A DNA stretch of 64,000 nt from the NCBI RefSeq assembly GCF_024298845.1, contig NZ_CP101160.1:124001-188000 (forward strand), given 5' to 3'. The DNA comes from Natronosalvus amylolyticus (GTDB taxonomy: Archaea > Halobacteriota > Halobacteria > Halobacteriales > Natrialbaceae). How positions within the stretch are numbered: position 1 is the stretch's first letter; each line of letters begins with the position of its first letter. The notes under the pieces were generated by a model. The model was not told the origin of the DNA, ran no database searches, and was given only the letters and a program-made list of their open reading frames with translations. Both the position numbers and the translations under genes were made by a program. Of the stretch, positions 7,709 to 25,161 are shown piece after piece.

Positions 7709-7896
7709 ATTTTGCAGAATATGCGTGGGTACAACCCGTGTTACTCACCAACGGTATGGTACAAATATTGTGCCTATCTCTGTAACCATGACTAACATAT
7801 GGTTGTAATAAGGAGCAATATTTTTCTAATCCGCTCGGTAGCATACCGCATATCAACACCGAAAGGGCTGTATAGCTAACGAGACAAGAACAAAGC

Positions 7897-8994
7897 ATGG
7901 CAGAAAACAAAGCGAATGACTCTCTCGAAGATCTGCCGCCAAGCTCCAAATTCATTTATAAGACATTATCTGACGTCGGTCCGATGACACTCAAGACATT
8001 GACCGAGGAAACCTTGCTTTCATCACGGACTGTAAGATATGGGCTTGACCAGCTCGATGATGCCGGTTTTATCGAGTCTTCCCCGGCTCTTCATGACGGC
8101 CGCCAAACGTGTTATCGGCTGATAAAAAGTGAAACCGACTCCTTGGATAACGGGATTCCAGCACTAGTTTCGCCGGATTGGGTTGACGAACGACTTCAAC
8201 AATTCGAGCGAGATGATCCTGATATGTGTCTCGTAGAAGCCGATGATGAGTACGACATCGGTCACTTGCCTGGTGCTGTTCATATAAATATCCTCAACGA
8301 TCTCATCGATGTAGATGGTTGTGGGATCGCTGACAAACGCTGCTTCGAAAAATACGTCGGTGCCCGCGGGATCACCGAGAATAGTACAGTTGTGATCTAT
8401 AGCGCCCACGAGAACCAGTATGCGGCGTACTTGTATTGGCTGTTTAAATACTACCGTCATACCGACGTTAGACTTCTTGATGGGGGAAAGCAATACTGGA
8501 AGGACATCGGCGGGGAAATCACCACTGATGAACCAAAAATCTCTAAACAGGAGTACAATGCACAACCCCCATACGAACGAATTCGTGCATACAGAAGTGA
8601 TGTCGAGGCTGCGCTTGCACAGGATGTTACTATCGTTGATGTCCGTTCATCAGCGGAATATCACGGGCATCGGGCACGTCCACCAAAACAAAACCTGCCT
8701 AAAGCACGCACATCGGGTCACATTCCCGGTACTGCACATATGACATGGTCCGAGATCATCGATGACGAGGGAAAATTCAAGGATACAACGGATCTCAAAC
8801 GTGTATTCCGTGAGCGAGGAATCCTCCCAGATACGGAGACTATAGTCTATTGCCACGTCGGTGAACGATCTTCCATCGTGTGGTTTGTCCTCTCGGAACT
8901 TCTCGAGTACGATTCAGTTTCAAACTACGATGGCTCCTGGATCGAGTGGGGTAACCTTATTGACATGCCGGTCGAAAGCAGTAACGAGAAGTGA
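7897..8994 (+). CDS. Winged-helix DNA-binding domain fused to a tandem-rhodanese sulfurtransferase
   Basis: 365 residues. Residues ~12-76 form a MarR/TrmB-like winged helix (SSRTVRYGLDQLDDAGFIE is the recognition region). The rest matches an SseA-type thiosulfate sulfurtransferase. Its first rhodanese domain (about 90-205) is non-catalytic, with Ser169-Ala170 at the active loop. Its second (about 230-355) has catalytic Cys319 in CHVGERS followed by SIVWFVL and YDGSWIEWGN. SseA-like enzymes normally lack a DNA-binding domain. It opens the sulfide cluster, 275 bp before sqr, so a role as a sulfane-sulfur-responsive regulator of the neighbours is a reasonable inference. Both activities are unproven. 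Confidence 0.88.
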   Translation: MAENKANDSLEDLPPSSKFIYKTLSDVGPMTLKTLTEETLLSSRTVRYGLDQLDDAGFIESSPALHDGRQTCYRLIKSETDSLDNGIPALVSPDWVDERLQQFERDDPDMCLVEADDEYDIGHLPGAVHINILNDLIDVDGCGIADKRCFEKYVGARGITENSTVVIYSAHENQYAAYLYWLFKYYRHTDVRLLDGGKQYWKDIGGEITTDEPKISKQEYNAQPPYERIRAYRSDVEAALAQDVTIVDVRSSAEYHGHRARPPKQNLPKARTSGHIPGTAHMTWSEIIDDEGKFKDTTDLKRVFRERGILPDTETIVYCHVGERSSIVWFVLSELLEYDSVSNYDGSWIEWGNLIDMPVESSNEK

Positions 8995-9269
8995 TACACG
9001 CTCGTCCGTAGGGCGCATTAATTCTCTTGTGATATTATTGATGTGAAGAGATTGTCGAACACTGCTCTCCGACATTTGCGGAGTTACGTTGCCACGTATC
9101 TGGTAGTGAGGTTTCGAGGCACTCCCCGTCGATTACGTCTCGAAGGGTCACTGTGACTACGCCACTAATCCTGCAATATTTTCATCTACTGTGATCGGAG
9201 GTGAGTCTATCCACAAATGTGTTCTGGAACAATCCCTTTAGATAATAATAGTCCTTAACCTGGGAGTAT

Positions 9270-10442
9270 ATGGTAAAAATCGCCATATTAGGCGCCGGTT
9301 CAGGAGGAGCAATGACGGCGAATCTTCTCCGACGTAAATTAAACACAGATGAGGCGGATATCACCGTCGTGGATAAGAGCACTGATCATTATTACCAGCC
9401 TTCATTTTACCTCATTCCGTTTGGGTATCTTGAGCCAGATCAATCCCGCGACATCGACGAACTCCTTAAGCCAGACGTTGAATTTGTCCAAGATGCTGTG
9501 GTCGGTATCGATCCGGATGAGCGAATCGTTACGCTCGATGAGAGCACGAACATCGAGTACGACTATCTTGTGGTTGCGACTGGACATCGACTCGATCCAA
9601 CTGCAATGCCCGGTCTCGTTGAGGCGTGGCAAGAAACGGATGCGGTATATCCGTTCTATCACTACGAGGCGGCTCTCGAGATGCGGGAGGCCTTACAGAA
9701 CTTCGAGGGAGGAACCTTCCTTGTCACGCAGCCAGATACGCCGATAAAGTGTCCGGGTGCGCCACTGAAATTGACGATGCTGGCTGAGGACTACTTCCGC
9801 CGAAAAGGTGTTCGGGAAGACGTCGATATCATCATGACTCGAAATGCCGAACACCACTTTGGTGTTCAGCCATATCGGGACAAACTCTACGAGATTTGGG
9901 ATGATCGTGGTATCGAGTTCTGGGAAAATTTCTCCGTCAGTGAGGTTGACCCGGACGCCGGCGTCGTATACGGCGCTGATGGTGAGAAGATTGACTATGA
10001 CCTCTATGCGCCTGTGACACCGCAGTTTGGTCAAAAGGCTATCACCGACGGCTCGCCGCTGGCTAACGGCTCCGAGAATGGTGAGTACGTCACTATCGAC
10101 AAACACAGTTGTCAGCATGACGAATATGAGGAGATCTTCGCATTGGGTGACTGTGAGAACGCTCCTCACTCAAAAACAGCTGCTGCCGCACGCAAACAGG
10201 CACACGTTGTCAGCAAGAACGTAACATCGTTAATCCGGGGCCAGCCGATGCTCGCCGAATATGACGGCTATGCTGCCTGCCCGTTACTCACCGGTAAGGG
10301 GAAGGCGATGGTCGCGGAGTTCGACTACGATGGACCGATCTCTGCTCCCGTCGAAAGCAAAATGAACTGGATAATGGATGTCAATGTTCTCCCGTCGGTC
10401 TACTGGGATGCCTGGATGAAAGGTTACGACCCACTCCCATAA
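9270..10442 (+). CDS. sqr: Sulfide:quinone oxidoreductase-like flavoprotein
   Basis: 390 residues. The N-terminus has the FAD motif GAGSGGAMTA, later VVATGHRLDP, and FALGDCENAP in the C-terminal FAD contact. Two cysteines in SQR context, Cys161 (KCPGAP) and Cys337 (ACPLLTGKG), are spaced as the redox-active pair that takes sulfide to polysulfide or persulfide. The C-terminus has Trp/Tyr-rich amphipathic segments that could sit in the membrane face. A TATA-rich stretch at 9238-9250 gives a near-leaderless start. It is followed after one base by a DUF1641 gene. A second SQR-DUF1641 pair is at 21.0-22.8 kb. The SQR superfamily is clear; the exact electron donor is inferred from context. Confidence 0.88.
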   Translation: MVKIAILGAGSGGAMTANLLRRKLNTDEADITVVDKSTDHYYQPSFYLIPFGYLEPDQSRDIDELLKPDVEFVQDAVVGIDPDERIVTLDESTNIEYDYLVVATGHRLDPTAMPGLVEAWQETDAVYPFYHYEAALEMREALQNFEGGTFLVTQPDTPIKCPGAPLKLTMLAEDYFRRKGVREDVDIIMTRNAEHHFGVQPYRDKLYEIWDDRGIEFWENFSVSEVDPDAGVVYGADGEKIDYDLYAPVTPQFGQKAITDGSPLANGSENGEYVTIDKHSCQHDEYEEIFALGDCENAPHSKTAAAARKQAHVVSKNVTSLIRGQPMLAEYDGYAACPLLTGKGKAMVAEFDYDGPISAPVESKMNWIMDVNVLPSVYWDAWMKGYDPLP

Positions 10443-10443
10443 T

Positions 10444-11295
10444 ATGGCTCAGAAAGACCAACCCGTAGAAAACGAATTCGAGCGCGCTCCAATCGAAATT
10501 GATGATGTCGACGCACCTGAACTCGCTCGCACCCTCGAAGACTACGACGAGGAACTGGCCGAACTTCTTGAGATGTTGGTGGTCGTCGAAGAACTCTCGA
10601 CTGAACTTGCACCCGGACTCCGCGGGACCGTCCACGAGTCCCGTGAGCCCATTGCGGCGCTACGAACGGCGCTCGAACATGAAGATACGCTCGTACTCGT
10701 TCAGCGAGTTGGAGAGAACGCTGATACACTTATCGAACTCCTAGAGGCGCTGGAAGTCGTCGACAGCCTCGTTGGTGACCTGATTCCAGAACTCAAGTTG
10801 GTCATCCGCGATAATCGCGAGACCTTTGCACGGATCAGGATGGCACTGGAACGCGAAGAGACGATCATTCTGCTCGAGCGACTGGGTGAGAACGAAGAGA
10901 CGTTGATCGAACTGCTCGATTTACTCGAGGTAACGTACGATCTCGCGGAAGGCCTGATACCCGAGGCAGTCACGGTAGTCCAGCAGAATCGAAAGCCAAT
11001 CACCGAATTTAGGATGATGATTGCCGGTATGACGTCTGCGTATTCTGACGCGGATATCGAGCCCCATCAGCTTGGCCAGAACCTCGGCAACATGCTCGTG
11101 TTGGGCTCTCGGCTTGGTGACGAGAAGCTTATTAACTCTGTCGAGGCAGGCCTCGGTGCCTTCACCGAAGACGAATCGCCGAAGAACGTCGGTCTCATTG
11201 GTATGCTCGCTGCGCTTTTCGATGATGACGTTCGACAGGGGCTTGGCATACTCGTTGAGTTCCTCCGTCGAATGGGTGCATCGTACTCAAGTTAG
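10444..11295 (+). CDS. DUF1641-type SQR partner protein with internal repeats
   Basis: 283 residues, starting one base after the sqr stop, so translation is probably coupled. The C-terminal segment (GLIGMLAALFDDDVRQGLG, then FLRRMG) is the DUF1641 signature. The first ~180 residues contain about three related ~57-residue helical units, each with ExxxTLxxLxRxGENxxTLIELLxxLEV. It is highly acidic with no membrane helix. In many prokaryotes DUF1641 proteins sit beside SQR genes; the biochemical role is not established. A shorter paralogue is encoded at 21006-21596. Confidence 0.85.
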   Translation: MAQKDQPVENEFERAPIEIDDVDAPELARTLEDYDEELAELLEMLVVVEELSTELAPGLRGTVHESREPIAALRTALEHEDTLVLVQRVGENADTLIELLEALEVVDSLVGDLIPELKLVIRDNRETFARIRMALEREETIILLERLGENEETLIELLDLLEVTYDLAEGLIPEAVTVVQQNRKPITEFRMMIAGMTSAYSDADIEPHQLGQNLGNMLVLGSRLGDEKLINSVEAGLGAFTEDESPKNVGLIGMLAALFDDDVRQGLGILVEFLRRMGASYSS

Positions 11296-11402: not shown

Positions 11403-11533
11403 CCTCTCCGCGTCACGACCGTGTACCGGATAGACGAAATTATTTCCCGAATCACACTGTCTATCTTTAGAAATCCGAAAAAATATCTGCTTAGACAGGA
11501 GTTATAATACTGTGGTGCGTATGCCCAAATGCA

Positions 11534-12214
11534 ATGACTGCCGAAGAAACTAACAGCAGTGGATTTCCGTTACTCGGTGATCAGTTCCCCGAACTGCAAG
11601 TCGAGACGACACACGGATCGAAGACGCTCCCAGAAGAGTATGAAGGCCAGTGGTTCATCCTCTTCAGTCACCCTGGTGACTTTACGCCGGTCTGTACGAC
11701 TGAATTCATCAGCTTCGAACAGCGCCGCCAGGAGTTCGAGGAATTGAATGCGAAACTGATCGGCCTCTCCATCGACCGCGTTCACTCCCACATCAAGTGG
11801 ACCGAGTGGATCAACGACGAGATTGGCGAGGATATCGCTTTCCCAATAATTGCCGACGAAGGAGGCGATGTTGCGGAAGCCCTCGGAATGGTTCACCCTG
11901 GACAGGGTTCCTCGACTGTTCGTGCGGTATTCATCGTCGATCCTGATGGGATTACTCGATTGGTACTGTATTATCCAAAAGAGATTGGACGAAACATTGA
12001 CGAGGTGCTTCGCTCGCTGAAAGCCCTTCAGACCCACGAGGAGGAGGGTGTTGCACTTCCTGCTGACTGGCCCGACAACAAGAACTTTGGAAGCAAGGCG
12101 TTACTTTCGCCACCGGGAACCGTTGACGAAGTCAAAGCGCGAACTGCCGAGGCCAACGAAGAGGGCTACGAATCCTACGATTGGTGGTTTACCCTGAAAG
12201 AACTCGAAGGTTGA
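11534..12214 (+). CDS. Peroxiredoxin, Prx6/AhpC-like with a single conserved cysteine
   Basis: 226 residues. The peroxidatic site is HPGDFTPVCTTEF with Pro47, Thr51 and Cys54, the conserved P-x3-T-x2-C arrangement; Arg in STVRAVFIVD completes it. Archaeal homologues often end with a CxDWWxC-type motif that supplies resolving cysteines. Here the same place reads SYDWWFT, so both are lost and the enzyme would act as a 1-Cys peroxiredoxin needing an external thiol. TTATAATA at 11502-11509 sits ~28 bp before the ATG, giving a leaderless transcript. A role against peroxide or persulfide stress is inferred from the location. Confidence 0.92.
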   Translation: MTAEETNSSGFPLLGDQFPELQVETTHGSKTLPEEYEGQWFILFSHPGDFTPVCTTEFISFEQRRQEFEELNAKLIGLSIDRVHSHIKWTEWINDEIGEDIAFPIIADEGGDVAEALGMVHPGQGSSTVRAVFIVDPDGITRLVLYYPKEIGRNIDEVLRSLKALQTHEEEGVALPADWPDNKNFGSKALLSPPGTVDEVKARTAEANEEGYESYDWWFTLKELEG

Positions 12215-12370: not shown

Positions 12371-12465
12371 AGATATAATGCGTTTCAATGGATATTGTCG
12401 TGAGTTGAAATATCACATTTCGCTTGTCGAAAGATTATAAATACTTTCGATACGTACACCGTCGT

Positions 12466-12765
12466 ATGGGCAAATCTGTCGAAAGCAGAGAGACTGCTGA
12501 GCTAGTCGAGCGAATCAACCAACTGGCGTCCGACGATCAGTCTGATAGCGACGAACCCCCATCGATCGAACGGCTTGCTTTCGATCTCGTTCGAAGATGT
12601 CACGATCGAATCAACGAACTCTACTACGAATACAATCTTTCGGATGCGGAAGCAGAAGCACGTATGCTCAAAGAGATCGGTCTCTCAGTGGAAGGTATCG
12701 CATTAGTTATGGGCGCGACGCGGGACGATATTTCCCTACGCAAAATAAACGACTATCTTCTGTAA
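12466..12765 (+). CDS. Small helical protein of unknown function
   Basis: 99 residues from the ATG at 12466. An ATG at 12424 in frame is rejected because a TATA element (TTATAAATA, about 12435-12443) lies between, placing a leaderless start at 12466. The protein is charged and helical, with ELVERINQL, a Tyr-rich patch (NELYYEYNL) and a C-terminal segment (MLKEIGLSVEGIALVMGATRDDI) that reads like a degenerate helix-turn-helix. No cysteines or membrane segment apart from one Cys in RRCHDRI. It might be a small DNA-binding or accessory protein of the sulfide cluster. Not recognised. Confidence 0.65.
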   Translation: MGKSVESRETAELVERINQLASDDQSDSDEPPSIERLAFDLVRRCHDRINELYYEYNLSDAEAEARMLKEIGLSVEGIALVMGATRDDISLRKINDYLL

Positions 12766-12864
12766 TCTGGCTCTCTACTGTAATGTAGTCGTCTGCTGGC
12801 TGGTCAGGTAACGACGCAGTTGAAGATACTTTTTTATCCATTGGCCGACACTCCTCACTCACTC

Positions 12865-13902
12865 ATGTATACAGACGATGGGTTCGAGTATGATGTTGCA
12901 GTTGTCGGTGGGGGTCCCGCCGGATTGACGAGCGCGTTGTACACAACACGTCTCGGACTGGACACGTTGGTGCTTGACCGGGGTGGTGGGCGGGCAGCCA
13001 TGATGCGCGAAACGCACAACGTAATCGGAGTCACGGAGGAAACGTCCGGCAATGAATTACTACAAACTGCGCGTGAACAGGTGCAGGAATATGGGGCCGA
13101 CTACGAACGTAGATTTGTGGAAGGGGTGACAGAGATCGGTGACACGCCCGACGAAGGCTTTCGTGTTGTAACCGCTGAGAAGTCATATCACGTTTGCCGA
13201 GTCGTACTCGCGATGGGTTTTACGGATGAACGTCCTGCGCCACCGCTTCCGCCAACTGGACGAGGACTGCACTACTGTCTCCACTGTGATGCGTACATGT
13301 TCGTTGATGAACCGGTATACGTTATGGGGGCGGGTGATGCTGCTGCCCACGTTGCGATGATCATGCTAAATTACACCGACGATGTCGACATCCTCACCCG
13401 TGGCCAGTATCCAACTTGGAGCGATGACACTGGGACGATGCTCGGTCAACACCCGGTCGATGTCGTCACTGCGGAAATTACCAGTATGAACAAAAGCAAC
13501 GATGGGTGGCTCGAATCGTTTGCTTTCGAGGACGGAAAAGTCCGCTCTTACAGCGGCGGGTTTCCGATGTACGGTTCCGACTACAACGACGATATCGTCG
13601 ACGGATTGAACCTCGAACGCACGGAAGACGGTGCCGTCGCCGTCGATGATCACGGTCGAACATCTCTCGACGGTGTCTATGCAGTCGGTGACCTTACGCC
13701 TGGACACAATCAGATCCCTGTTGCGATGGGTGAAGGTGCGAACGCTGGGATCGCCATCTCGAAAGAACTGCGGGCATTTCCGCGGTCGCTCGAGGCAATC
13801 GATCTACAAGGGGCAGTCACGAGCGACGATGTTCCGTCGATCTCGGATTCGCTTGCGTCGACCGCGACCGATCATCGTGGTCACGCCCCTCGACGTAGGT
13901 GA
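12865..13902 (+). CDS. Thioredoxin-reductase-like FAD oxidoreductase (CLHC dithiol)
   Basis: 345 residues from the ATG at 12865; TTTTTTAT at 12830-12836 lies 29 bp upstream, so the in-frame ATG at 12820 is unlikely. It has the N-terminal GGGPAGLTSALY motif, the redox pair Cys138-Leu-His-Cys141, a second nucleotide motif GAGDAAAHVAM, and VYAVGDLTPG near the C-terminus. This is the domain order of low-molecular-weight TrxR. The usual HRR/R NADPH-phosphate contact is not apparent after GAGDAA, so the electron donor may not be NADPH. The ~40-residue Arg/Ser-rich tail is unusual. It may reduce persulfides or the nearby peroxiredoxin, by location only. Confidence 0.85.
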   Translation: MYTDDGFEYDVAVVGGGPAGLTSALYTTRLGLDTLVLDRGGGRAAMMRETHNVIGVTEETSGNELLQTAREQVQEYGADYERRFVEGVTEIGDTPDEGFRVVTAEKSYHVCRVVLAMGFTDERPAPPLPPTGRGLHYCLHCDAYMFVDEPVYVMGAGDAAAHVAMIMLNYTDDVDILTRGQYPTWSDDTGTMLGQHPVDVVTAEITSMNKSNDGWLESFAFEDGKVRSYSGGFPMYGSDYNDDIVDGLNLERTEDGAVAVDDHGRTSLDGVYAVGDLTPGHNQIPVAMGEGANAGIAISKELRAFPRSLEAIDLQGAVTSDDVPSISDSLASTATDHRGHAPRRR

Positions 13903-14031
13903 TCGATCGACAGGTGGAATAGCGGCAACTTCTGTCGATTGTTTACGGTAATCCGTGGTTCCCATCGAAAAAGAGCTAATAATTTCAGATGGTCTAACCC
14001 TTAATAACGGACGGTTCGATACCTCTATTGT

Positions 14032-15201
14032 ATGGTTGAGACTATTTCAGCAGCAGAACTTCGAGACCGCATCGAAGCCAACGATCTGGACGTACTTTTT
14101 GATACAAGAGCACCGGAGGACTACGAGGATTGGCACATTGCCGAGGCAAAGAACGTCGAGTACTCGGGCTCTGATGACGAACTCGTCGGCGACTTCAATC
14201 CAAACACCTACGACGACCCCAATATCGTCACTACCTGTGCGACCGGTCGCTCTGCGGAAAAGTTCGCAAAGTACCTGGAAGAGCGGGGTTTCGAGAACGT
14301 CGCTCACGTTGAGAACGGGATGGAAGCGTGGAGTCTAGTTTACGATGTCGTACCGATCGTGACGGAGCGAGATAATCTCGAAATTCTTCAACTTCAGCGG
14401 CGTGCGAAAGGTTGTTTAGGGTATCTGGTAGGCTCAAAGCGGACGGGCAAAGCGGCACTTATCGACGTTACGCGTGCGACAGGTACCTTCGAGAACGCTG
14501 CCGCCGAACGCGGCTACGAAATCGCTCGCGTCTTCGACACCCATATTCACGCTGACCACATTTCTGCGGGTCGAGAACTTGCTGATAAACACGGCGTACC
14601 ATACCACCTTGGGGCTTCTGCTAACTCACGCGATCCACAATTCGAGTTCGACGCTCTCCAGCCCAATGAAACAGTGGCCGTCGGCGACATCGATATCAAA
14701 GCGGTTCATACGCCCGGTCATACCACGGGAATGACTTCATATCTGGTCGAGGATGAAGCTCTGTTAACGGGCGACACGCTATTTGTCGAGTCGATTGGTC
14801 GGACTGAACTTCAGTTTGCAGGTGAAGACGCGAAATCTGGTGCTCGGATCCAGTACGAGACACTCCATCACAAGATTGGGACCAACGCCGATCATATCAA
14901 AATCCTTCCTGGGCACTTTTCGCTAACTAACTGCGGCGAGTACATCGATGTTGAACCTGGAATGCCGATGTTTTCAACCGTCGGCGAGATCTGGGCGAAA
15001 AACGAGATTATACAGCTCGGGGAAGACGATTTCGTCGAGCACATGTTCGACAATCTTCCGTCAAAGCCGCCGAACTACCAGAAAGTTATCGAGACGAATC
15101 TTGGCATCTATAAACCAGAAGATGAGGACGAACGCAACGAACTCGAACTTGGCCCCAACCGTTGTGCAGCGACTCAAGACAGCGCCGTCGCAGACGACTA
15201 A
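14032..15201 (+). CDS. Rhodanese-persulfide dioxygenase (ETHE1-like) fusion
   Basis: 389 residues. Residues 1-105 form a rhodanese domain with catalytic Cys69 in TTCATGRSA. Residues ~110-350 form a metallo-beta-lactamase domain with THIHADH (170-176), HTPGHTTG, and GDTLF plus the ILPGH metal ligands, which is the ETHE1/persulfide dioxygenase pattern. Known rhodanese-dioxygenase (PRF/CstB-like) fusions turn glutathione or other low-molecular-weight persulfide into sulfite or thiosulfate. TTAATAA at 14001-14007 gives a leaderless start. It is followed by a tiny membrane protein and a TSUP permease, which would export the product. Confidence 0.92.
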   Translation: MVETISAAELRDRIEANDLDVLFDTRAPEDYEDWHIAEAKNVEYSGSDDELVGDFNPNTYDDPNIVTTCATGRSAEKFAKYLEERGFENVAHVENGMEAWSLVYDVVPIVTERDNLEILQLQRRAKGCLGYLVGSKRTGKAALIDVTRATGTFENAAAERGYEIARVFDTHIHADHISAGRELADKHGVPYHLGASANSRDPQFEFDALQPNETVAVGDIDIKAVHTPGHTTGMTSYLVEDEALLTGDTLFVESIGRTELQFAGEDAKSGARIQYETLHHKIGTNADHIKILPGHFSLTNCGEYIDVEPGMPMFSTVGEIWAKNEIIQLGEDDFVEHMFDNLPSKPPNYQKVIETNLGIYKPEDEDERNELELGPNRCAATQDSAVADD

Positions 15202-15370: not shown

Positions 15371-16411
15371 ATGGAACTACTTGGAATTGGAGTCGAACTG
15401 TTCGGCTTCTTTGTAACTTTTGGCCTCCTCGTAGGTATTCTCTTTGGCTTCTTTGGCATGGGAGGCTCGTTCCTCATCACCCCAGCATTGCTGGTGATGG
15501 GGTATCCGACCCCCGTTGCTGTTGGGAGCGGAATGGCATTCGTCTTTGGGACGGCTGTCATCGCAACGTTAAAACACCACGATCTAGGCCAGGTTGATTA
15601 CAAACTTGGTGTAATCATGATCGCTGGCACGACCCTTGGAATCGAGGTTGGTCGAATTCTCGTCTACTATCTCGAGGATCTTGGACTAGCTGGTGGGATT
15701 ATTAGCACTACGTACGTGGTGTTACTTGGTGGCATCGGACTCTTTGTTGTAAAAGAGTCTCTTGGTGGAAATGACGATGAAACCGAACCCGCACATGGTG
15801 GTTACGACGGCAACGACTCGTCGTTCGAGAATTTTGAACCGCCAGAGTTCGCCAAAAAGATGCAAGCAATCCGCCTGTGGCCGATGGTAACCCTCCGTGG
15901 CGACGTAACGATCTCTGCGTGGATCATTACGGCGATCGCATTTATAACCGGTCTGCTTTCGGGATTCCTCGGTGTTGGTGGTGGCTTCATCCGGATGCCA
16001 GCGATGATGTACGCTATCGGTGTTCCGGTGCCCGTCGCAGTCGGTACAGACCTTTTCGAAATCGTCTTTTCGGGTGGTCTCGGGTCGTTCCTCTACGCAC
16101 GAGAAGGTGGTGTCGACCTTTCGATAGTCGTTCCGTTATTGCTCGGCAGCGCCCTGGGCGCACGCGTCGGCTCCGCGTCGACCGAAATCGTCGATAGCGG
16201 TGGAATAAAGATCTATTTTGGCATTATGCTGTTGCTCGGTAGTATTGCCGTTGCGGTTGGCGAGATTGGCGAATATCTCGGAAACGAGGCACTCGAGATG
16301 TCCGGCTTATTGCTAATCGTTGGCTCGGCATTTCTTGTCAGTGGTGCGATTATCTACAGTACGATCCGATCGATGCGGTCCGAGGATCGTCTGTCAACAT
16401 CGGCCGATTGA
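15371..16411 (+). CDS. TauE/SafE (TSUP) family permease, probable sulfite/sulfur-anion exporter
   Basis: 346 residues, about 8-9 hydrophobic helices in two halves. Each half carries the family's Gly-rich repeat (FGFFGMGGSFL and SGFLGVGGGFIRMPAM). A hydrophilic Asp/Glu-rich loop (about residues 133-165) separates them. TSUP proteins export sulfite, sulfoacetate or related anions, or take up sulfane sulfur. Next to a persulfide dioxygenase, sulfite or thiosulfate is the likely cargo. The gene follows the microprotein after 3 bp. Confidence 0.9.
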   Translation: MELLGIGVELFGFFVTFGLLVGILFGFFGMGGSFLITPALLVMGYPTPVAVGSGMAFVFGTAVIATLKHHDLGQVDYKLGVIMIAGTTLGIEVGRILVYYLEDLGLAGGIISTTYVVLLGGIGLFVVKESLGGNDDETEPAHGGYDGNDSSFENFEPPEFAKKMQAIRLWPMVTLRGDVTISAWIITAIAFITGLLSGFLGVGGGFIRMPAMMYAIGVPVPVAVGTDLFEIVFSGGLGSFLYAREGGVDLSIVVPLLLGSALGARVGSASTEIVDSGGIKIYFGIMLLLGSIAVAVGEIGEYLGNEALEMSGLLLIVGSAFLVSGAIIYSTIRSMRSEDRLSTSAD

Positions 16412-16462: not shown

Positions 16463-17204
16463 GGCACTGTCTAGTTTAGCACCTCCGCTGGCGTCTGTCC
16501 GTTGAGTGATTGGTGCGGTCGTTGTGTGTTATAGTAGTGTACGAATTGTTCAAGCCAACCTCTAGCGCTCGCCCGACTGCCCACCCATGAATTATGAAAG
16601 CGGTTGACCCGCATCTTCAGCGTTTGAAACCACTTTTCGATCAGGTTTCGGTCAACGTAGTTGAGGTGACCGCCCAATCCTAACCGAGAGAGGGCAGTCA
16701 GATATCCGTAGCCATCGACGAGAAACTCGGTGTCGGAGAGATCGTGTTTCTCGGTCAATCGATGCAGGAACGCGGCAGCTGGATCGGTGCCGCGTCGTCC
16801 GAACACTTCGACATCAAGAATCAACCGTGAGTCGAGATCGATTGCAGCATACACCCAAGACCAGTCGCCGTTTATCTTGACAGCAGTCTCATCAACTGCG
16901 ACCCGCGACGGCTTCGCCGTCGGCGGGTCTGGAACGCTGTCAGCCAGCCGATGCACCCACTGCCAGATCGCTTGATGAGAGCGTTCAACGCCGATTAAGC
17001 GAAGAATTGCTTGTGTCTCTCGGAGCGAACATCCTGTCGTGTGGAGCCGGACGGCGAACACCCTGATGGGCGTCGCCGTCCGCTCACGCTCCCAACATTC
17101 ATCAAATTCCGCTGCGTAGGACTCGTTGAGCAGGTCTACGAGCATTATTCCAAATTCTCTCCACGACCTGCTCATTCCTCAAACTGGCCTAACTAGACAC
17201 TGCC
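16463..17204. mobile_element. IS6-family insertion sequence, complete, 742 bp
   Basis: Fourteen-base terminal inverted repeats, GGCACTGTCTAGTT at 16463-16476 and the complement of GGCAGTGTCTAGTT at 17191-17204 (one mismatch), are flanked by identical 8-bp duplications. One transposase gene fills the element, and its stop codon lies inside the left repeat. The intact ends and duplication indicate a recent insertion. It landed between the TSUP gene and an HTH_10 regulator without disrupting either. Confidence 0.9.
16471..17175 (-). CDS. IS6-family DDE transposase
   Basis: 234 residues. The N-terminal part carries a helix-turn-helix (SLRETQAILRLIGVERSHQAIWQWVH). The catalytic residues read as Asp95 (AVDETAVKI), Asp154 (LVDGYGYL) and Glu180 (NLIEKWFQTLK), followed by the family's C-terminal HNSWVGS and NTQRPHQSLNGQTP. 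The length is full for haloarchaeal IS6 enzymes. The stop overlaps the element's inverted repeat. The frame is intact, so the element may be active. Confidence 0.92.
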   Translation of the reverse strand: MSRSWREFGIMLVDLLNESYAAEFDECWERERTATPIRVFAVRLHTTGCSLRETQAILRLIGVERSHQAIWQWVHRLADSVPDPPTAKPSRVAVDETAVKINGDWSWVYAAIDLDSRLILDVEVFGRRGTDPAAAFLHRLTEKHDLSDTEFLVDGYGYLTALSRLGLGGHLNYVDRNLIEKWFQTLKMRVNRFHNSWVGSRASARGWLEQFVHYYNTQRPHQSLNGQTPAEVLN

Positions 17205-17212: not shown

Positions 17213-17472
17213 TTACTGCTTCTAATTTTGTGAAATCGGCCCTGGGCAACCATTTAGGCTTCACAACAGAATCTTTTATCGACAATATTTTCCGCTATCT
17301 TCGGTGTCACTCTGCTATCGCACGAAAATCGTCCTGTCCGACTACTTTAGGATTTACCAGGCCGTAATATCTAATTGAATGGTCTCCATTGACCCCTCTG
17401 AGAACCTGTCGTATCGATCGTCACAAGAGATTACGTATTGTATCCAATCAGGCTATCTGTCTGCTTTCCACT

Positions 17473-18240
17473 ATGAATGAGACGGACCGTCTCCGCGAGT
17501 TTAGGTTTACGTTGAGGTATAAAAAAGGGGAAGACCTAGTTTCTGACATGTTTCACAACCACTCTAATCTCCGTGCCCTGACAATCGACCTCACGACTGG
17601 CAAAAGATCATTTGTGCGACTCGTTCAACTTACGGGTCCGCCAGAAGTGACTGATCGTCTCCAAACGATGCTCGAGGACCGTGACTACCTTCCGCGAGAG
17701 ATTGGATCACAAGAATGCTGTGGGTCGAGCACCTCCTATCGGCTCGAGTGTGCTCCGAGGAAGCGATTGATATACGTCTACGTCGAAGACATCTGTGACT
17801 GTGAGTGTATTTATAATATTGCTTCGGAACATCTCCAACGGGGTACGATTATGGAACGAAGGCAATACGCTAGCCGGGAACAATGGCGTCTATTGATGCG
17901 GTCCGATGAGGGGGTCGGTACAATGTTCGAGCACATCGACGCTTCCTGTCGTGACGGTGTCACCGTTGAAGCTAATCAACTCGGAGAGGTAACGGAGTGG
18001 CACGGAAATGCCTTTGTCGATGATGAATTGACCGGTTCACAACGTGAGGCAATCACACAGGCAGCAGCCAGAGGATACTACGAAAGACCTCGTCAAGTTA
18101 CGGTTGAAGAACTCTCCACCGAACTAGGTGTCCCAAAGTCGACGCTCTCATATCGGCTTCGAATGGCCGGATCCAAACTCGTTAAACGATATCTGGATCG
18201 GCACTCAGAAGTTGATAGTGACGAGGCATTGGGTAATTGA
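17473..18240 (+). CDS. HTH_10 (bacterio-opsin-activator type) transcription regulator
   Basis: 255 residues from the ATG at 17473; a longer TTG-started frame from 17389 has no support. The C-terminal ~55 residues (LTGSQREAITQAAARGYYERPR, then ELSTELGVPKSTLSYRLR) are the HTH_10 domain. The N-terminal ~150 residues are a ligand-type region with a Cys cluster: CC in SQECCGSST and C-C-C in DICDCECIY. Such a cysteine group beside sulfide-oxidation genes suggests sulfur or redox sensing. It stands between the IS6 element and the convergent cydB, so it may control the cyd/sqr cluster or the dioxygenase operon. Confidence 0.85.
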   Translation: MNETDRLREFRFTLRYKKGEDLVSDMFHNHSNLRALTIDLTTGKRSFVRLVQLTGPPEVTDRLQTMLEDRDYLPREIGSQECCGSSTSYRLECAPRKRLIYVYVEDICDCECIYNIASEHLQRGTIMERRQYASREQWRLLMRSDEGVGTMFEHIDASCRDGVTVEANQLGEVTEWHGNAFVDDELTGSQREAITQAAARGYYERPRQVTVEELSTELGVPKSTLSYRLRMAGSKLVKRYLDRHSEVDSDEALGN

Positions 18241-18411: not shown

Positions 18412-19467
18412 TCAGTCAGGGGTCCCATATCCTTCATCGTCTTCAATTGGTCCCGAGAACACCGAGTACAGATATTTAAAATATATCAGTACGAGGGCAA
18501 GCACAGGTACGACAACGATCGTTAGCACATTGAGCGCGAGTGGTGAGATGATAGCTTCGCGAACGGTCTGTCCGGTTGCAGGGTAGATAACCGGGTACAA
18601 GAGGATGGCCACGAGTATCATAAGTGCAGCGGCAACTCCAGCAGTGGCTGCAAACCACCTAACGACCTCGCCTCTCTCAGCAGCAACTACTCCAGCTACC
18701 AGCAGCACCACTGTTGCGACGACGACTACTACAACGGGGATCGAAACCAGCGTTTCACGAACGCCGAGTGGATCGGTGACGATGACGATTGTGAGCAACA
18801 GGACTATAGCACTTAGATACCCCAGACTCGCGTAAATCCCATACGAGGCCATCTCCCTGCGAAGATCATTGGTCGTCTTCATCCCGAGGTAGGCTGCACC
18901 GGACGACAGCGACAGGAACACGATCGCTACACCGGTCATTACACTCGGCAAGCTGATCATTCCCGTCCCGAACACCCAGCTTCCAGTGAGAGTGCCGATG
19001 AAAAACGGGGATGCGATGCTACCGATGACGAACCCACGGTCACACGCACGTTGCCAGGACGGGTCATCGCGTTGTTCTCGGAGTTCCGGCGTGACGCCAC
19101 GTAGCAGCAATGAGAACACGATTGCAAAAATCAGTAAGTAATGGTCACTCAACAACGACGCATATACCGATGGAAACGCCGCAAACAGTATTGTTCCGAA
19201 CGCGACGAGCCATACCTCGTTAGCGTCCCAGACAGGACCGAACGCGGCGAGTAATGTCTCGCGATCTTGAACTTCTTTACGTGTTGCGTAGAGTATCCCG
19301 ATTCCAAAGTCAAACCCGTCGAGGAACACATACATAGTCAGTGTGAACAACAGGATACCGAACCAGAATTCGGGAAGCCACGGTAGCAAATATCTGTCGA
19401 TTGGTACGACTGGTCCAAACAGTACGTGGCCGTCAAAACTCGACCCGTGTACCAGAGTGCTCATCAT
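18412..19467 (-). CDS. cydB: Cytochrome bd-type quinol oxidase subunit II (second set)
   Basis: About 352 residues from the ATG at 19467; a longer frame from 19569 overlaps cydA and is not favoured. It has many hydrophobic helices and the CydB hallmarks near the start: GFDFGIGILY, AAFGPVWDANEVWLV and LLRGVTPELR. Four bases separate it from the upstream cydA. The product would form the heterodimer with CydA, which reduces O2 with quinol. This is the last gene of the minus-strand series sqr, DUF1641, cydA, cydB. Confidence 0.9.
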   Translation of the reverse strand: MMSTLVHGSSFDGHVLFGPVVPIDRYLLPWLPEFWFGILLFTLTMYVFLDGFDFGIGILYATRKEVQDRETLLAAFGPVWDANEVWLVAFGTILFAAFPSVYASLLSDHYLLIFAIVFSLLLRGVTPELREQRDDPSWQRACDRGFVIGSIASPFFIGTLTGSWVFGTGMISLPSVMTGVAIVFLSLSSGAAYLGMKTTNDLRREMASYGIYASLGYLSAIVLLLTIVIVTDPLGVRETLVSIPVVVVVVATVVLLVAGVVAAERGEVVRWFAATAGVAAALMILVAILLYPVIYPATGQTVREAIISPLALNVLTIVVVPVLALVLIYFKYLYSVFSGPIEDDEGYGTPD

Positions 19468-19471
19468 TGTA

Positions 19472-20914
19472 TTAGACCTCCCCGGAGCCACCTGCTGTTG
19501 ACTCAGTTGACTTCTCACTAGCAGTGCGCTCGAGTTCGTCTCGCTGGACTCGCTCGAGTTCATCATCAATTATCCATTTCATCACATGAAGAAAAACGAC
19601 CACGAGTATCGTATACACGATCGCAAATGCGGTCAACGAGACTGTCACCTGTGTCGATGTTAGCGTCTGGGAGACCCCCTCGCTGGTCAGTTGAACGTCC
19701 TGGATAATCCATGGCTGACGGCCGATTTCGGTGACGTACCAGCCAACGATGGTCGCGACAAAACCAAGCGGAATCGATGCCATCAGCGCTTTCAAATGCC
19801 AGCTACGTTCGTAGAGTCCCCCCTTTCGAATTCGGTAGACACTCCACAGTCCGAGCGCAATAAACCAGAATCCAAGAAATACCATCGTCCGGAAAGACCA
19901 AAAGACGTACGCGACAGGTGGATTCTTCACATCGAACTCCTCGAGGCCGTAGACCACACCTGTTGGATCAGCCTCGGCCAGAATCGATGTCAGATACGGA
20001 ATACTGATCGTAAACAAATCTTCGGCCCGCGGGTCCGTGATATCCGCAAGGTTCCGTGGAAATGCTAGCAGATGCAAGGGTGCCCCCTCTTTCGTTTCGT
20101 AGAGTGCCTCCATCGCGGCGAATTTCATCGGTTGTGTCTGGACGACGTGGCGGGTATACATGTCGCCATGGATTACCTGGAATATCGAGGTGATCGCGAG
20201 GACGCCGACCGAGAGTTTGAGTGTCCCGCGCCAGGGCTCGCTCTCGGGATTCGCCCATACGAAGTAGGCTGCAACACCGGCGACCAACAGCGTCACCGAT
20301 ATGATTGCGGCATTTTGCATGTGGACGTACATCCAGAACAATCGCGGCGGGAAGTAGGCCGCGAGTGGATCCGTGAGTACGACTCCTGCCACGCCGTTGT
20401 CTTCGACGAGTTCGTATCCCTGTGGTGTTTGCATCCAGGAGTTGACAATGAGTATCCAGAACGCTGACAGCCATGCGCCGATCATCACCAGCACTGACGA
20501 GAGAACGTAGACCCGGTCGCTGACTCGGTCACGTCCGAACAACAGGATGCCGAGAAAAACGGCCTCGAGGAAGAAGGCCATTGTCGACTCGAATGCGAGT
20601 GGGCCGCCGATCAACTCGCCAGCAAACTCGGAGAACTCCGGAAAGTTGGTCCCGAACTGGAAGCTCATCGGAATCCCCGTTGCGGTCCCCATAACGAAAC
20701 CAATCGCGAATACTTTTGTCCAGAACGAGCGTAACCGTTTGTACTTTTTTTCACCGGTCGAAACCTCCTTCCAGGTAAAATAGACGATGTAGGGTGCAAG
20801 CCCGACCGAAAGGGCTGCAAAGACGATATGGACCGACAATGTGCCGCCGAATTGAATACGACTGCCTACCTCGGGGTCGATCAAGAGTGGGTCGATTATG
20901 AGTGAATCGAACAT
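19472..20914 (-). CDS. cydA: Cytochrome bd-type quinol oxidase subunit I (second set)
   Basis: 480 residues, starting at the ATG at 20914. Family markers include the N-terminal RIQFGGTLSVHIVFAA (His29 as a candidate haem ligand), GIPMSFQFGTN, WMYVHMQNAA with a second His, and GRQPWIIQ. The Q-loop is short (KFAAMEALYET), as in the short-loop bd oxidases. A charged Glu/Ser-rich C-terminal tail lies in the cytoplasm. It follows the DUF1641 gene by 91 bp. bd oxidases are known to resist sulfide, which fits their pairing here with SQR. Confidence 0.92.
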   Translation of the reverse strand: MFDSLIIDPLLIDPEVGSRIQFGGTLSVHIVFAALSVGLAPYIVYFTWKEVSTGEKKYKRLRSFWTKVFAIGFVMGTATGIPMSFQFGTNFPEFSEFAGELIGGPLAFESTMAFFLEAVFLGILLFGRDRVSDRVYVLSSVLVMIGAWLSAFWILIVNSWMQTPQGYELVEDNGVAGVVLTDPLAAYFPPRLFWMYVHMQNAAIISVTLLVAGVAAYFVWANPESEPWRGTLKLSVGVLAITSIFQVIHGDMYTRHVVQTQPMKFAAMEALYETKEGAPLHLLAFPRNLADITDPRAEDLFTISIPYLTSILAEADPTGVVYGLEEFDVKNPPVAYVFWSFRTMVFLGFWFIALGLWSVYRIRKGGLYERSWHLKALMASIPLGFVATIVGWYVTEIGRQPWIIQDVQLTSEGVSQTLTSTQVTVSLTAFAIVYTILVVVFLHVMKWIIDDELERVQRDELERTASEKSTESTAGGSGEV

Positions 20915-21005
20915 CTAACGTTGTCACCTCACTGTGTCTATGCGTTCTCGCTTGACAACTATCTGTTCTCGTCTCATTTTCCGTTGGTTGATCGTGTTCT
21001 CGAAT

Positions 21006-21596
21006 TCATTCGATCCCCTCGTACTGCTGTTGTAGGTCCTCACCTGTCGAACGGGTGACTGCGATGAGAAAACCGAGGCCCCGTTGGACGTTCGGGTCGC
21101 GAAGTGCACGGACGAGTCCGATGATGCCCATCCGTCCCGTCGAGCCGTTCGCACCTTCACCGATTCCGTTCATTAGCGCCTGGATGCCGACGACCGTGTC
21201 CGGATTCGCCGTCGTATCTGCAATCTCGCCAAGCGAACTCCCCAACTCACTAACGGACATGATGATATCGTCATCGACCGCGGCGGCGAGCAAGGATACC
21301 GTGTTGGCAAGACCGACAAGCGTCTCCAGGTCACCGTCTCTTTCGAGTTGCACAACCCGCTCGAGGCCGTTGGCCAGTTCGCCGGTGTTGTCTTCGACCA
21401 CCTGATTCAGTCGGTCCTTCTCGCCCGTTATGTCTTTAGCGGCCGTGGTGTCACTGGATGTCGTTGTCCTGTCGAGTAACTTCTCAGTGTGCCCATGCTG
21501 GTGAACGAACGTGGCTACCGCCTCGGGATCTGACTTGATGGCATCGATGAGACGCCGTTCGGTCGCTTCTCTCTCGGTGACTGTGTCGTCTGTCAT
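21006..21596 (-). CDS. DUF1641-type SQR partner protein (second set)
   Basis: 196 residues. The signature GRMGIIGLVRALRDPNVQRG near the C-terminus matches the end of the protein at 10444-11295. The N-terminal repeat region is reduced to one unit (LANGLERVVQLERDGDLETL). It starts 2 bp after the stop of the upstream sqr, so the two are coupled. A Thr/Asp-rich linker (DRTTTSSDTTAAKD) precedes the domain. Same role as the larger paralogue, presumably helping SQR; mechanism unknown. Confidence 0.85.
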   Translation of the reverse strand: MTDDTVTEREATERRLIDAIKSDPEAVATFVHQHGHTEKLLDRTTTSSDTTAAKDITGEKDRLNQVVEDNTGELANGLERVVQLERDGDLETLVGLANTVSLLAAAVDDDIIMSVSELGSSLGEIADTTANPDTVVGIQALMNGIGEGANGSTGRMGIIGLVRALRDPNVQRGLGFLIAVTRSTGEDLQQQYEGIE

Positions 21597-21598
21597 AT

Positions 21599-22759
21599 TC
21601 AGAGTAACCCTCGAGCAGTTAGCCAGTAGGATTCGTTGTACGCGAGCTTTGCCAGGTGCACGAACTGTGAGGGTGGCCGGACAACTGGTTCCTCGTCGTA
21701 GCCAAACGAGACGAACGTAGCCTTTTCAAGACCGGTTTCGACGAAACAGAGCGTCTTGCCGTCGTATGTCGCTGTTGGCGGCTGACCATGGACCTCACTC
21801 CGGATTCTCTCGGCGACGACTCCGGCCTGATAATGTGCAGCGCTCCCGGCTTTGCTTGTCGGGACGTCGGTGATGTCCCCGAGTGCATATACGTGGTCTG
21901 CATGTGTCGCCTCGAGCGTGTGCTTGTCGACCTCGATCCACTGGTGGCCGAGCTCTGCTCGCTCGACGAGAGGACCACCAGCGTGTGGCGGTATCGTCAC
22001 GAGGAGGTCATAATTGAGGGTCCGGCCGTTCCCTGCAACGAGTTGTTTTTCATCTGACTCGGCTGATTCGACTTCGAACGACGTCTCGACTGCGATGTCT
22101 CGCTCCTCGAACAGTGGCCTCACCCAGTCAGCGATAGCCTGTTTGCCGTGAACATCTTCGAGTGGGTACGTGTAGGTGATTTCGATGTCGTCCCGATACC
22201 CTCGATCGCGGAACCACTCGTCGGCGATAAGAACGAACTCAATCGGTGCTGCGGGGCACATGTGTGGCATTCCAGCGGTACTCGAGACCAGGTGTCCCGA
22301 CGTGAACGTGGCGAGTTCGTCACGGAGCGCTTCGGCTGCCGTTGCACTATAGAAGTGATGTACACTATCCTCCAGTCCGTCGATCGTCTCCGGAACGAGC
22401 CTTGCACCGATCGCGATGACGAGGTAGTCGTACCTGAGCGGTTCACTGCCACTCTCAAATGTGAGCCGTTTCGAGTCAGTATCGATATCCGAGACGTGCT
22501 CTAGTCGAACCTCGACCTGTCTGTCGAGTAACTCCTGGTGTGGCCGACGGCTGTTGGCCACTTTTTTCCTATTGAACGCGACGTATAAGAAGAGTGGCTT
22601 GTACACGTGTTCGAGGGTATCGGTGACGAGGGCCAATTCGATGTTCCCATCCGCCAGTCCGTCCTCTAACGCTGTTGAGAGTTTGTTCAAGACGACCGTG
22701 CCACCAGTTCCACCACCGATGACGACGACTCGTTGAACACCTGTTGGATCCGTCACCAT
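21599..22759 (-). CDS. sqr: Sulfide:quinone oxidoreductase-like flavoprotein (second set)
   Basis: 386 residues from the ATG at 22759; an ATG at 22795 in frame would add 12 residues. It has the FAD motif GGGTGGTVVLNKL, LVIAIGARLVPE and VYALGDITDVPTSK. The redox cysteines are Cys168 (HMCPAAP) and a second in KTLCFVETG. It aligns in layout with the protein at 9270-10442 but is clearly divergent, so the two are not a recent duplication. The C-terminus is amphipathic (VHLAKLAYNESYWL). It heads the minus-strand series leading to cydAB. Confidence 0.87.
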   Translation of the reverse strand: MVTDPTGVQRVVVIGGGTGGTVVLNKLSTALEDGLADGNIELALVTDTLEHVYKPLFLYVAFNRKKVANSRRPHQELLDRQVEVRLEHVSDIDTDSKRLTFESGSEPLRYDYLVIAIGARLVPETIDGLEDSVHHFYSATAAEALRDELATFTSGHLVSSTAGMPHMCPAAPIEFVLIADEWFRDRGYRDDIEITYTYPLEDVHGKQAIADWVRPLFEERDIAVETSFEVESAESDEKQLVAGNGRTLNYDLLVTIPPHAGGPLVERAELGHQWIEVDKHTLEATHADHVYALGDITDVPTSKAGSAAHYQAGVVAERIRSEVHGQPPTATYDGKTLCFVETGLEKATFVSFGYDEEPVVRPPSQFVHLAKLAYNESYWLTARGLL

Positions 22760-23023
22760 CTGTATCAGGCGAAGAACTGACCGGGTTTTGAGCAATTAGT
22801 CATTCGAGTAATCGAAAACCTGTTGCGTTCCATGGTACTGTCCCCCACTCCGAATCTAATAAAGATGGCACAATAATAGCATATGTCCTGAAAATCGGCT
22901 TTTCAGATATGCCTCCATTCAGGCCCCTTCTACAGGAGAGCAGGTCAAGTCTCTCGGGATTTGATTCCGATGCGAATCAAATTGGGGCTAACGGTTAATA
23001 CTCTCCAGGGTGTTCCAGCCAGC

Positions 23024-23281
23024 ATGGAAACAGAGCAAGCGACCTCGTGTAAGTCCTGTGGCGAACCCCTCGAGGCGAGAGCAAGCGCGTGTCTAGAATG
23101 CGGGAATGCGCCCAAGCGAGTAGTGAGAAAGCGTGGAGCGTTAGTTCTCTTTGGTGGGGTTCCGTTATTTTTCATTAACCCACCAGTTGGGTTCATTCTG
23201 GCCATTACGGGTATTTTCATTGTATTTGGCTCGTGGTTCGTCTCAGCGACGACTCACAGTGCGGCCACACCATCGGAATGA
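23024..23281 (+). CDS. Zinc-ribbon membrane protein, two helices
   Basis: 85 residues from the ATG at 23024, with TTAATAC-type TATA at about 22995. Residues ~8-27 carry CxxC...CxxC (CKSCGEP then CLECGN), a zinc ribbon. After a basic stretch (KRVVRKRG) come two hydrophobic helices. Small zinc-ribbon/two-helix proteins are common in haloarchaea and usually uncharacterised. The long upstream frame from 22961 is not supported by the promoter. Confidence 0.7.
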   Translation: METEQATSCKSCGEPLEARASACLECGNAPKRVVRKRGALVLFGGVPLFFINPPVGFILAITGIFIVFGSWFVSATTHSAATPSE

Positions 23282-23290
23282 CGAATATAC

Positions 23291-23368
23291 AGTAACCAGT
23301 GATACGATTCACACACCGACCACGACGCTGTCATACGATAGTATGTACACTGAATTTCACTGGCTAAT
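23291..23368. repeat. Family A palindromic repeat, copy 5
   Basis: Arms AGTAACCAGTGATA (23291-23304) and TTTCACTGGCTAAT (23355-23368), two or three mismatches from copy 1. It begins 10 bp after the stop of the zinc-ribbon gene. Confidence 0.7.
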
Positions 23369-23685
23369 GAGTTCGGTAAACCTCTAATCGTGCATCTATT
23401 TCGCTCATTCCTCCGCAATTAAGCCCTTGCCTGAAGACGCGGAAAGCTTGCACTATATGTCAATAAAGTATAAGCATCTATATTATGAGTTGGCTACCAT
23501 AGAATTATTCACAGTGAATATCTCACTGTTGATCTTCGAAAAAGATAGTGTATTTTTTCGAGACTATTATCGAACACCGGCCAGTGAATAATAGATGTAT
23601 TGGTTTGATGGTCGAAACTTGGACATAGACGAAGTGCTCCTTACCTTCGCTGAAACCCATCTCTGCATATATCTGGTGACAATAG
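23369..23685. other. AT-rich promoter region upstream of cydA
   Basis: Contains ATTCA-cag-TGAAT (23508-23520) and other short dyads, and a TATA-like ATATATC at 23666-23672. The TATA position would put the transcription start at about 23692-23698, just after the first ATG. No gene seen. Confidence 0.45.
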
Positions 23686-25161
23686 ATGCACCTTAGTGAA
23701 ACGCTGCCAACAATTGATGCCGTACTGATGGTTTTGATAACCGAACTATGGCCGATACTCACATTTCTCTCACCTGAACTCGCCAGTCGTATTCAGTTTG
23801 GATGGGCAATCACAATTCACATCATTTTTGCGTCGCTCTCTGTCGGACTTGCGCCGTTTCTGGTTTATTTCACCGTCCAAGAAGTTCGAACTGGCGAGCA
23901 ACGATACGCACGACTCCGAGCGTTCTGGACAAAGATCTTCGCGGTCGGTTTCATCATGGGGACCGTGACCGGCATTCCGATGGGATTTATGTTCGGGACC
24001 AATTTCGCCGCGTTTTCCAAGACTGCTGGGGAACTGATTGGGGGCCCGCTCTCATTCGAAGCCAAGATGGCCTTCTTCCTCGAGGCGGTTTTTCTCGGCG
24101 TCCTGTTGTTTGGTCGTGAACGGGTGTCAGATCGGTTTTACGCCTTCTCATCGTTTATGGTTGCACTCGGTGCCTGGCTCTCGGCGTTCTGGATCTTGGT
24201 CGTCAACTCCTGGATGCAGACACCGCGCGGCTACGAAATCGTAATGGAAGAGGGCGTCCCGATCGCTGAACTCACCGATCCGCTGGCGGCATTTTTCAAT
24301 CCACGCTTCCCGTGGATGTACGTCCACATGCAGAACGCTGCTGTCATCTCTGTTACGTTGCTAATTGCGGGCATTGCAGCCTATTTCGTCTGGAAGAATC
24401 GTGACAGTGATGTTTGGAAAACTGCACTTCGGGTGGCCGTTGTCGTCCTCTTCTTGACGTCGATGTTCCAGGCCGTTCATGGTGACATGTATGGTCGCCA
24501 CGTTGCCGAAACCCAGCCTCACAAGTTCGCTGCGATGGAGGCGCATTACGAGACAGGAGCTGCGGACTTACACATCGTTGCCATTCCAATGGATTTTGAA
24601 GCGATTACTGACCCTCGAGCCGACAACCTTTACACAATAAGCATTCCCCACTTCGCCTCGTTCCTTGCTAGCGGTGGTGATCCGAACGCTGAAGTAATTG
24701 GACTCAACGATTTTGAGTACGATTCCCCACCAGTAGCCTGGGTGTTCTGGTCGTTTCGGGCGATGGTTGGACTTGGCTTTTGGTTCATCGCACTCGGTGG
24801 CTGGGGGACTTATCGCTTATGGAAGGGAGGTATCGCTCACGATGATCGACTTCTGAAAGCACTAATGATCTCCTCACCGCTTGGTTTTGTTGCCCTGATC
24901 ACTGGCTGGTACGTCGCCGAAATCGGCCGTCAGCCCTGGATTATTCAAGGTGTCCTCAAAACGTCTGACGGTGTCTCTCCACCATTGACAGGGACTGAAG
25001 CAACACTGACACTAATCGCGTTCGTCGTTGGATACATCTTATTAATCGGTGTTTTCCTTCACATATTGAGACGGATTGTCAACGAGGAGGCTCAACGACA
25101 CGAAGTTGGCATTGACGAGGACGATCAAATCGATTCACCTGGGGTGCCCGCAGATGACTGA
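23686..25161 (+). CDS. cydA: Cytochrome bd-type quinol oxidase subunit I (first set)
   Basis: 491 residues from the first ATG. Because the TATA box lies only ~17 bp upstream, the ATG at 23728 may be the true start (477 residues, matching the paralogue's N-terminus). It shows RIQFGWAITIHIIFAS, GIPMGFMFGTNF, WMYVHMQNAA, HKFAAMEAHYET and GRQPWIIQ, the subunit I markers with a short Q-loop. It is close to the minus-strand paralogue over its whole length. Its stop overlaps the cydB start, so the two are co-translated. Confidence 0.92.
   Translation: MHLSETLPTIDAVLMVLITELWPILTFLSPELASRIQFGWAITIHIIFASLSVGLAPFLVYFTVQEVRTGEQRYARLRAFWTKIFAVGFIMGTVTGIPMGFMFGTNFAAFSKTAGELIGGPLSFEAKMAFFLEAVFLGVLLFGRERVSDRFYAFSSFMVALGAWLSAFWILVVNSWMQTPRGYEIVMEEGVPIAELTDPLAAFFNPRFPWMYVHMQNAAVISVTLLIAGIAAYFVWKNRDSDVWKTALRVAVVVLFLTSMFQAVHGDMYGRHVAETQPHKFAAMEAHYETGAADLHIVAIPMDFEAITDPRADNLYTISIPHFASFLASGGDPNAEVIGLNDFEYDSPPVAWVFWSFRAMVGLGFWFIALGGWGTYRLWKGGIAHDDRLLKALMISSPLGFVALITGWYVAEIGRQPWIIQGVLKTSDGVSPPLTGTEATLTLIAFVVGYILLIGVFLHILRRIVNEEAQRHEVGIDEDDQIDSPGVPADD

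Follow-up and report, generated by a model that had tools for sequence, protein, structure and literature searches.

A haloarchaeal fusion of a MarR-type winged helix with a tandem rhodanese: a candidate sulfane-sulfur-responsive regulator of sulfide genes

The window is the whole stretch of DNA which we have analysed, 64,000 nt from Natronosalvus amylolyticus. At positions 7897..8994 of the + strand it has an intact ORF which codes for a protein of 365 amino acids, a MarR-type winged helix fused to a tandem rhodanese. It is the first gene of a cluster of sulfide genes, all of them on the + strand. A reading of this DNA made from the letters only (the sequence-only reading) had described it as a winged helix on a complete tandem rhodanese with an intact Cys319, leading the sulfide cluster, and this description agrees with what we find. 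The ORF is followed by a sulfide:quinone reductase-like flavoprotein (SQR, type III SQR-like, 9270..10442), its partner DUF1641 protein (10444..11295) and a peroxiredoxin of the 1-Cys Prx/AhpC type (11534..12214). Then come a thioredoxin-reductase-like flavoprotein (TrxR, 12820..13902), a persulfide dioxygenase-like protein with rhodanese and metallo-beta-lactamase parts (rhodanese/MBL, 14032..15201), a sulfite exporter of the TauE/SafE family (15371..16411) and a HVO_2928_N/HTH_10 regulator (17389..18240). Between the peroxiredoxin and TrxR there is a small conserved protein of 113 amino acids (12424..12765), with no match in Pfam, which recurs in related clusters. A transposase-like ORF (16471-17175) lies between the TauE and HTH_10 regulator genes. 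Further on, in 18412-26149, there are a second SQR-like gene, again accompanied by a DUF1641 gene, and two pairs of cytochrome bd oxidase genes (CydAB) on opposite strands.

The winged helix covers residues ~4-80 (7906..8136, + strand) and belongs to a haloarchaeal family of small MarR-like paralogues. When the N-terminal ~80 residues are compared with Pfam, MarR is the best match (E 8e-5), with 22.9 bits, just under the cut-off of 24.6. The AF2 model of this domain (pLDDT 80) has a MarR fold; its top Foldseek matches are MarR proteins with TM ~0.7, some of them in DNA-bound structures. The sequence-only reading had called this region MarR/TrmB-like: the winged helix and its MarR affinity are retained, while the TrmB assignment was dropped, since MarR scores better in both Pfam and Foldseek. 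In MarR regulators the helices on the N- and C-terminal sides of the domain build a dimerisation region; in the model of the fusion the domain is short and is followed by a flexible linker (78-86, of low confidence) and then by the rhodanese part. The latter (residues 89-362; 8161..8982, + strand) was assigned by homology and predicted fold: phmmer matches it to Thermus thermophilus 1uar and to Mycobacterium tuberculosis CysA2/CysA3 with E ~1e-59, and the model compares with PDB structures at a TM-score of ~0.9, normalized by target length. It contains two rhodanese domains, with the catalytic cysteine in the C-terminal one. This is Cys319, found in the loop CHVGERS (codon 8851..8853, + strand). 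A second cysteine, Cys72 (codon 8110..8112, + strand), is part of the sequence RQTCY, which the model places in the second strand of the wing. Both positions stand out in the alignment of fusions described below.

The full-length fusion is present in 28 of the 394 Halobacteria genomes sampled, with identities of up to 75% and in several family codes. Since it recurs in this way, it is neither an artefact nor a peculiarity of the Natronosalvus genome. We also scanned named genomes with two rhodanese peptides as seeds, which returned 80 loci. Among these 80 loci the full-length fusions are solely haloarchaeal, the other matches covering essentially the rhodanese part; distant fusions elsewhere are compatible with such a scan. 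Carriers include Natronorubrum, Natronolimnohabitans, Natrialba, Natribaculum, Natrinema, Haloferax, Halobellus, Halomicrococcus and Natronomonas. An SQR orthologue with at least 60% identity is found in exactly the same 28 genomes, while genomes without the fusion do not exceed 56%. In a set of 61 genomes the rhodanese/MBL homologue is present in nine out of nine with the fusion and in none of the 52 others. As the genomes are related, these counts do not represent independent events and the p-values given below for a promoter motif are nominal.

In nearly all loci the fusion adjoins SQR-DUF1641; peroxiredoxin, rhodanese/MBL and TauE are usually there as well, and many of the loci also have CydAB. 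One genome (G065) has the fusion and SQR ~108 kb apart. Some rhodaneses serve tRNA thiolation, and the sequence-only reading had offered as an alternative a sulfurtransferase brought to DNA for tRNA or base thiolation. We considered this in the wider form of an enzyme which acts on DNA or RNA by thiolation (tRNA, DNA phosphorothioation), and find no support for it. The recurrent neighbours belong instead to sulfide metabolism or respiration, and both the strict link with SQR and a conserved promoter motif also argue against thiolation, which we consider hardly probable at all.

In a tree of the rhodanese part, obtained with a quick method, 73 unfused proteins form one supported group and the fusions fall outside it. 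Two other rows entered as unfused are a fusion truncated by the end of its contig (L064) and a spurious long branch. The tree is compatible with a single origin of the fusion. The close relatives of the winged helix are standalone haloarchaeal proteins, mostly of ~95-130 amino acids, several in each genome. In several of these paralogues (in L170-L194) the C-terminal end has two adjacent cysteines (DACCAE), perhaps a site for metal binding or redox chemistry. In one fusion gene found beside CydAB (L025:237-1370) the second rhodanese domain is interrupted by an in-frame TGA, which probably means that the copy is disrupted or that there is a sequencing error; the same genome has another, intact fusion. 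Several SQR loci which lack the fusion (L135-L140, for example L135:9624-11398 and L137:502-2138) have an unfused tandem rhodanese gene directly adjoining that of a HVO_2928_N/HTH_10 regulator, possibly an unfused counterpart of the pairing found in the fusion.

We compared 41 fusion sequences with 75 unfused tandem-rhodanese homologues. Cys319 is kept in all 41 fusions and Cys72 in 39 of them. Of the two exceptions, L026 has a cysteine about one residue earlier, and L024 is a paralogue with no cluster genes found nearby. Cys72 is the sole cysteine of the winged helix, and the standalone paralogues that we aligned have Leu at this position. No other cysteine of the fusions is near-invariant: conservation of Cys111, Cys142 and Cys149 was not found among the aligned sequences. 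Residue 320, next to the catalytic cysteine, is Arg in 73 of the 75 unfused proteins; all 41 fusions have His, Asn or Gly instead, so that the usual loop CRxGERS is replaced by CHVGERS in the window. The 11 fusions which we aligned first all have R44, T45 and R47 in the recognition helix; in the whole set of 41, R44 and T45 are kept throughout, with His at 47 in clade C and Ser at 48 in L024. The sequence-only reading had stated that a fusion limited to this genome, with a degenerate recognition helix, would speak against it: neither feature is found.

From these alignments we infer that the fusions may work as a two-cysteine sulfane-sulfur switch, formed by Cys72 and Cys319. The earlier proposal placed sensing on Cys319 alone. 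Cys319 is kept in all 41 fusions, but a switch or sulfur relay which involves two cysteines is the better fit, because the wing has a near-invariant Cys72 which is absent from the unfused winged-helix relatives. Ligand sensing is the usual mode of MarR regulators. The rhodanese half could bind or transform another small molecule, such as thiosulfate, sulfite or cyanide, or act as a trigger enzyme, with no exchange of sulfur between Cys319 and Cys72. The missing Arg of the loop does suggest a changed chemistry or substrate. Nevertheless this alternative appears unlikely to us, given the invariance of Cys319, a Cys72 which is specific to the fusions and a genomic context of sulfane-sulfur metabolism.

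The promoters of the cluster have a common feature, the palindrome GCAATwATTGC, which recurs at fixed positions upstream of the SQR, peroxiredoxin and rhodanese/persulfide-dioxygenase genes and of the fusion gene itself. In an alignment of the upstream regions of clade A, GCAATATTTTC precedes SQR as well as the fusion gene. A PWM was trained on the SQR distal (-98) sites only, from 32 promoters, and used to scan the window and related loci. The putative operator of SQR in the window is GCAATATTTTCAT (9173..9185, + strand, starting at -97), with 18.1 bits; the proximal site of this promoter is weak. The fusion gene has the putative operator GCAATATTTTTCT in its own promoter (7815..7827, + strand, 15.1 bits) and a weaker second site (7759..7771, - strand, 11.9 bits). 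Upstream of peroxiredoxin there is a putative operator with the palindrome GAAATAATTTC (11434..11448, either strand, 13.8/15.2 bits), followed by a proximal site (11475..11487, - strand, 11.6 bits). The rhodanese/MBL gene has a weak site (13976..13988, + strand, starting at -56) with 8.2 bits; low scores are common in the rhodanese/MBL promoters of clade A. Of the two promoter regions that the sequence-only reading had singled out, the one at 9.0-9.27 kb has a strong palindrome, while that at 13.9-14.03 kb has this weak site. The HTH_10 regulator gene is preceded by ACAATATTTTCCG (17282..17294, + strand, 17.2 bits) and is a possible further member of the regulon.

In the window five matches reach at least 13 bits, when 1.3 are expected and no more than 4 were found in any of 30 simulated sequences. 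All five are upstream of cluster genes: fusion, SQR, peroxiredoxin (two overlapping) and HTH_10 regulator. In the whole genome of 4.2 Mb the strict palindrome GMAATWATTKCS is found solely in the peroxiredoxin promoter, and the looser pattern RMAATWWTTTYNY is matched 13 times, four of them within the cluster. For the Natronosalvus genome we claim regulon members within the cluster only. Over the related loci the PWM scores of the fusion, rhodanese/MBL and peroxiredoxin promoters and of the SQR-proximal region exceed those of dinucleotide shuffles (MWU p 3e-18 to 4e-12, nominal). The promoters of DUF1641, TauE, TrxR, the small protein and CydA show no excess over the shuffles, and CydAB, which had been considered as a target, is unsupported by the PWM. 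The peroxiredoxin promoter had been entered as a negative control and was made a likely target after scoring, so that the comparison with controls is post hoc.

The motif follows the fusion. The first SQR-type gene of six loci without the fusion has no upstream PWM match at 7 bits, and none of five peroxiredoxin promoters without the fusion has the motif. Nor is it found upstream of four more distant rhodanese/MBL paralogues in genomes with the fusion. It is kept at the unlinked SQR of G065 (L144), 108 kb from the fusion. G022 has a second copy of the peroxiredoxin gene on a different contig, and there too the motif is present, with 20.3 bits. A different transcription factor might bind the motif, the fusion being merely a co-regulated sulfurtransferase whose winged helix has some other use: it is by sequence comparison that we assign the motif to the fusion, and there are HTH_10 regulators near some clusters. 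Against this, of the regulator-like genes only the fusion consistently accompanies the motif, the motif disappears with the fusion and persists at the unlinked SQR and peroxiredoxin genes, and the promoters of the standalone winged-helix paralogues lack it. We find this explanation quite improbable. Taken together, co-occurrence, synteny and the shared palindrome give good comparative support to the fusion as a local regulator of sulfide genes, which was the core idea of the sequence-only reading.

The position of the sites gives an indication of the direction of regulation. In de-duplicated promoters the mean site centres are found at -93/-52 in SQR and peroxiredoxin and at -105/-52 in rhodanese/MBL; -52 is the centre of the proximal site in all three genes. 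The spacings of 41 and 53 bp correspond to about four helical turns and about five. Downstream of the proximal site, before the start codon, there is a TATA-like element; it was recognised by eye, as were all TATA boxes and transcription starts. In the archaeal regulator SurR, sites upstream of TATA activate (PMC12162507). As the putative sites have fixed, helically phased positions upstream of the apparent TATA, by this rule the fusion protein most likely activates the cluster genes under sulfide load. The same sensor could be a repressor which leaves DNA upon persulfidation, as BigR/SqrR do: in BigR, oxidation of the two cysteines by H2S or polysulfide abolishes DNA binding (PMC5823870). This is a variant of our preferred explanation and its probability overlaps with it; we judge it rather unlikely, by the evidence of position alone, since the sites are upstream of the TATA-like element, not over or downstream of it, and the SurR rule favours activation.

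The whole model, a haloarchaeal transcription factor which responds to sulfane sulfur through Cys319 and Cys72, binds the palindrome and acts as a likely activator, is in our opinion the probable explanation. The MarR-type winged helix would bind GCAATwATTGC upstream of SQR-DUF1641, peroxiredoxin, rhodanese/persulfide dioxygenase and its own gene, with the tandem rhodanese as sensor. SQR activity would raise persulfide or polysulfide, which would load Cys319 with sulfane sulfur. From there the sulfur would move to Cys72 of the wing, or form a bridge with it (a persulfide, disulfide or polysulfide link), and operator binding would change as a result. Activation of the sulfide genes under sulfide load would then close a feedback loop. 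We infer the sensing chemistry from the pair of cysteines and their sulfide context, with BigR as a precedent. A narrower statement, possible rather than probable, is that these proteins form an archaeal family of activators in which a rhodanese without the loop Arg senses sulfane sulfur and passes it from Cys319 to Cys72, with the sulfide-oxidation regulon transcribed according to the transfer itself. An enzyme of sulfur transfer would then have become the sensor half of a transcription factor, and the transferred atom would be the signal. The family provides a defined candidate regulon, a specific putative operator and two diagnostic cysteines, which make the sensing chemistry directly testable.

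In the open-access literature we found no description of a MarR-type winged helix combined with a tandem rhodanese and two cysteines, which does not prove its absence; nor did we find there any haloarchaeal regulator described as sensing persulfide. The principle is partly known: there are rhodanese-like domains in regulators, two-cysteine sulfide sensors and the archaeal SurR.

BigR/SqrR place a winged helix over sulfide-oxidation genes (dioxygenase/sulfurtransferase, TauE exporter), as proposed for the fusion, and like it have two conserved cysteines; H2S and polysulfide act on this pair (PMC5823870). In BigR/SqrR both cysteines belong to a small ArsR protein, whereas the fusion has a MarR-type fold, with Cys72 in the wing and Cys319 in the tandem rhodanese. 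BigR is also a bacterial repressor placed at the -10 region, while the fusion is archaeal with putative sites upstream of the apparent TATA. SurR of Thermococcales is archaeal too; it responds to sulfur through a cysteine switch in a winged helix and activates when bound upstream of TATA (PMC12162507). It differs by its ArsR-type wings with CxxC, the lack of a rhodanese, the operator GTTn3AAC and its target genes, which are those of hydrogen metabolism and of the reduction of sulfur. Transcription regulators with a rhodanese-like domain are also reported among ArsR-rhodanese fusions and ChrB (PMC3817168). Their DNA-binding part is ArsR or ChrB and the rhodanese-like module of ChrB has a MST-like loop; in the literature consulted neither an SQR regulon nor a Cys72-type pair was found reported for them; the protein in the window has a MarR-type winged helix and two rhodanese domains. 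The rhodaneses of CysA2/CysA3/SseA type (M. tuberculosis, T. thermophilus 1uar) share the two-domain fold, 38-39% identity and a C-terminal catalytic cysteine. They are enzymes without a DNA-binding domain and their loop CRxGERS keeps the Arg absent from every fusion. Finally, the haloarchaeal small MarR-like proteins, mostly with 40-52% identity to the winged helix of the fusion, share its recognition-helix pattern RTVRYxL; they differ from it by having no rhodanese, Leu in place of Cys72 and promoters without the motif.
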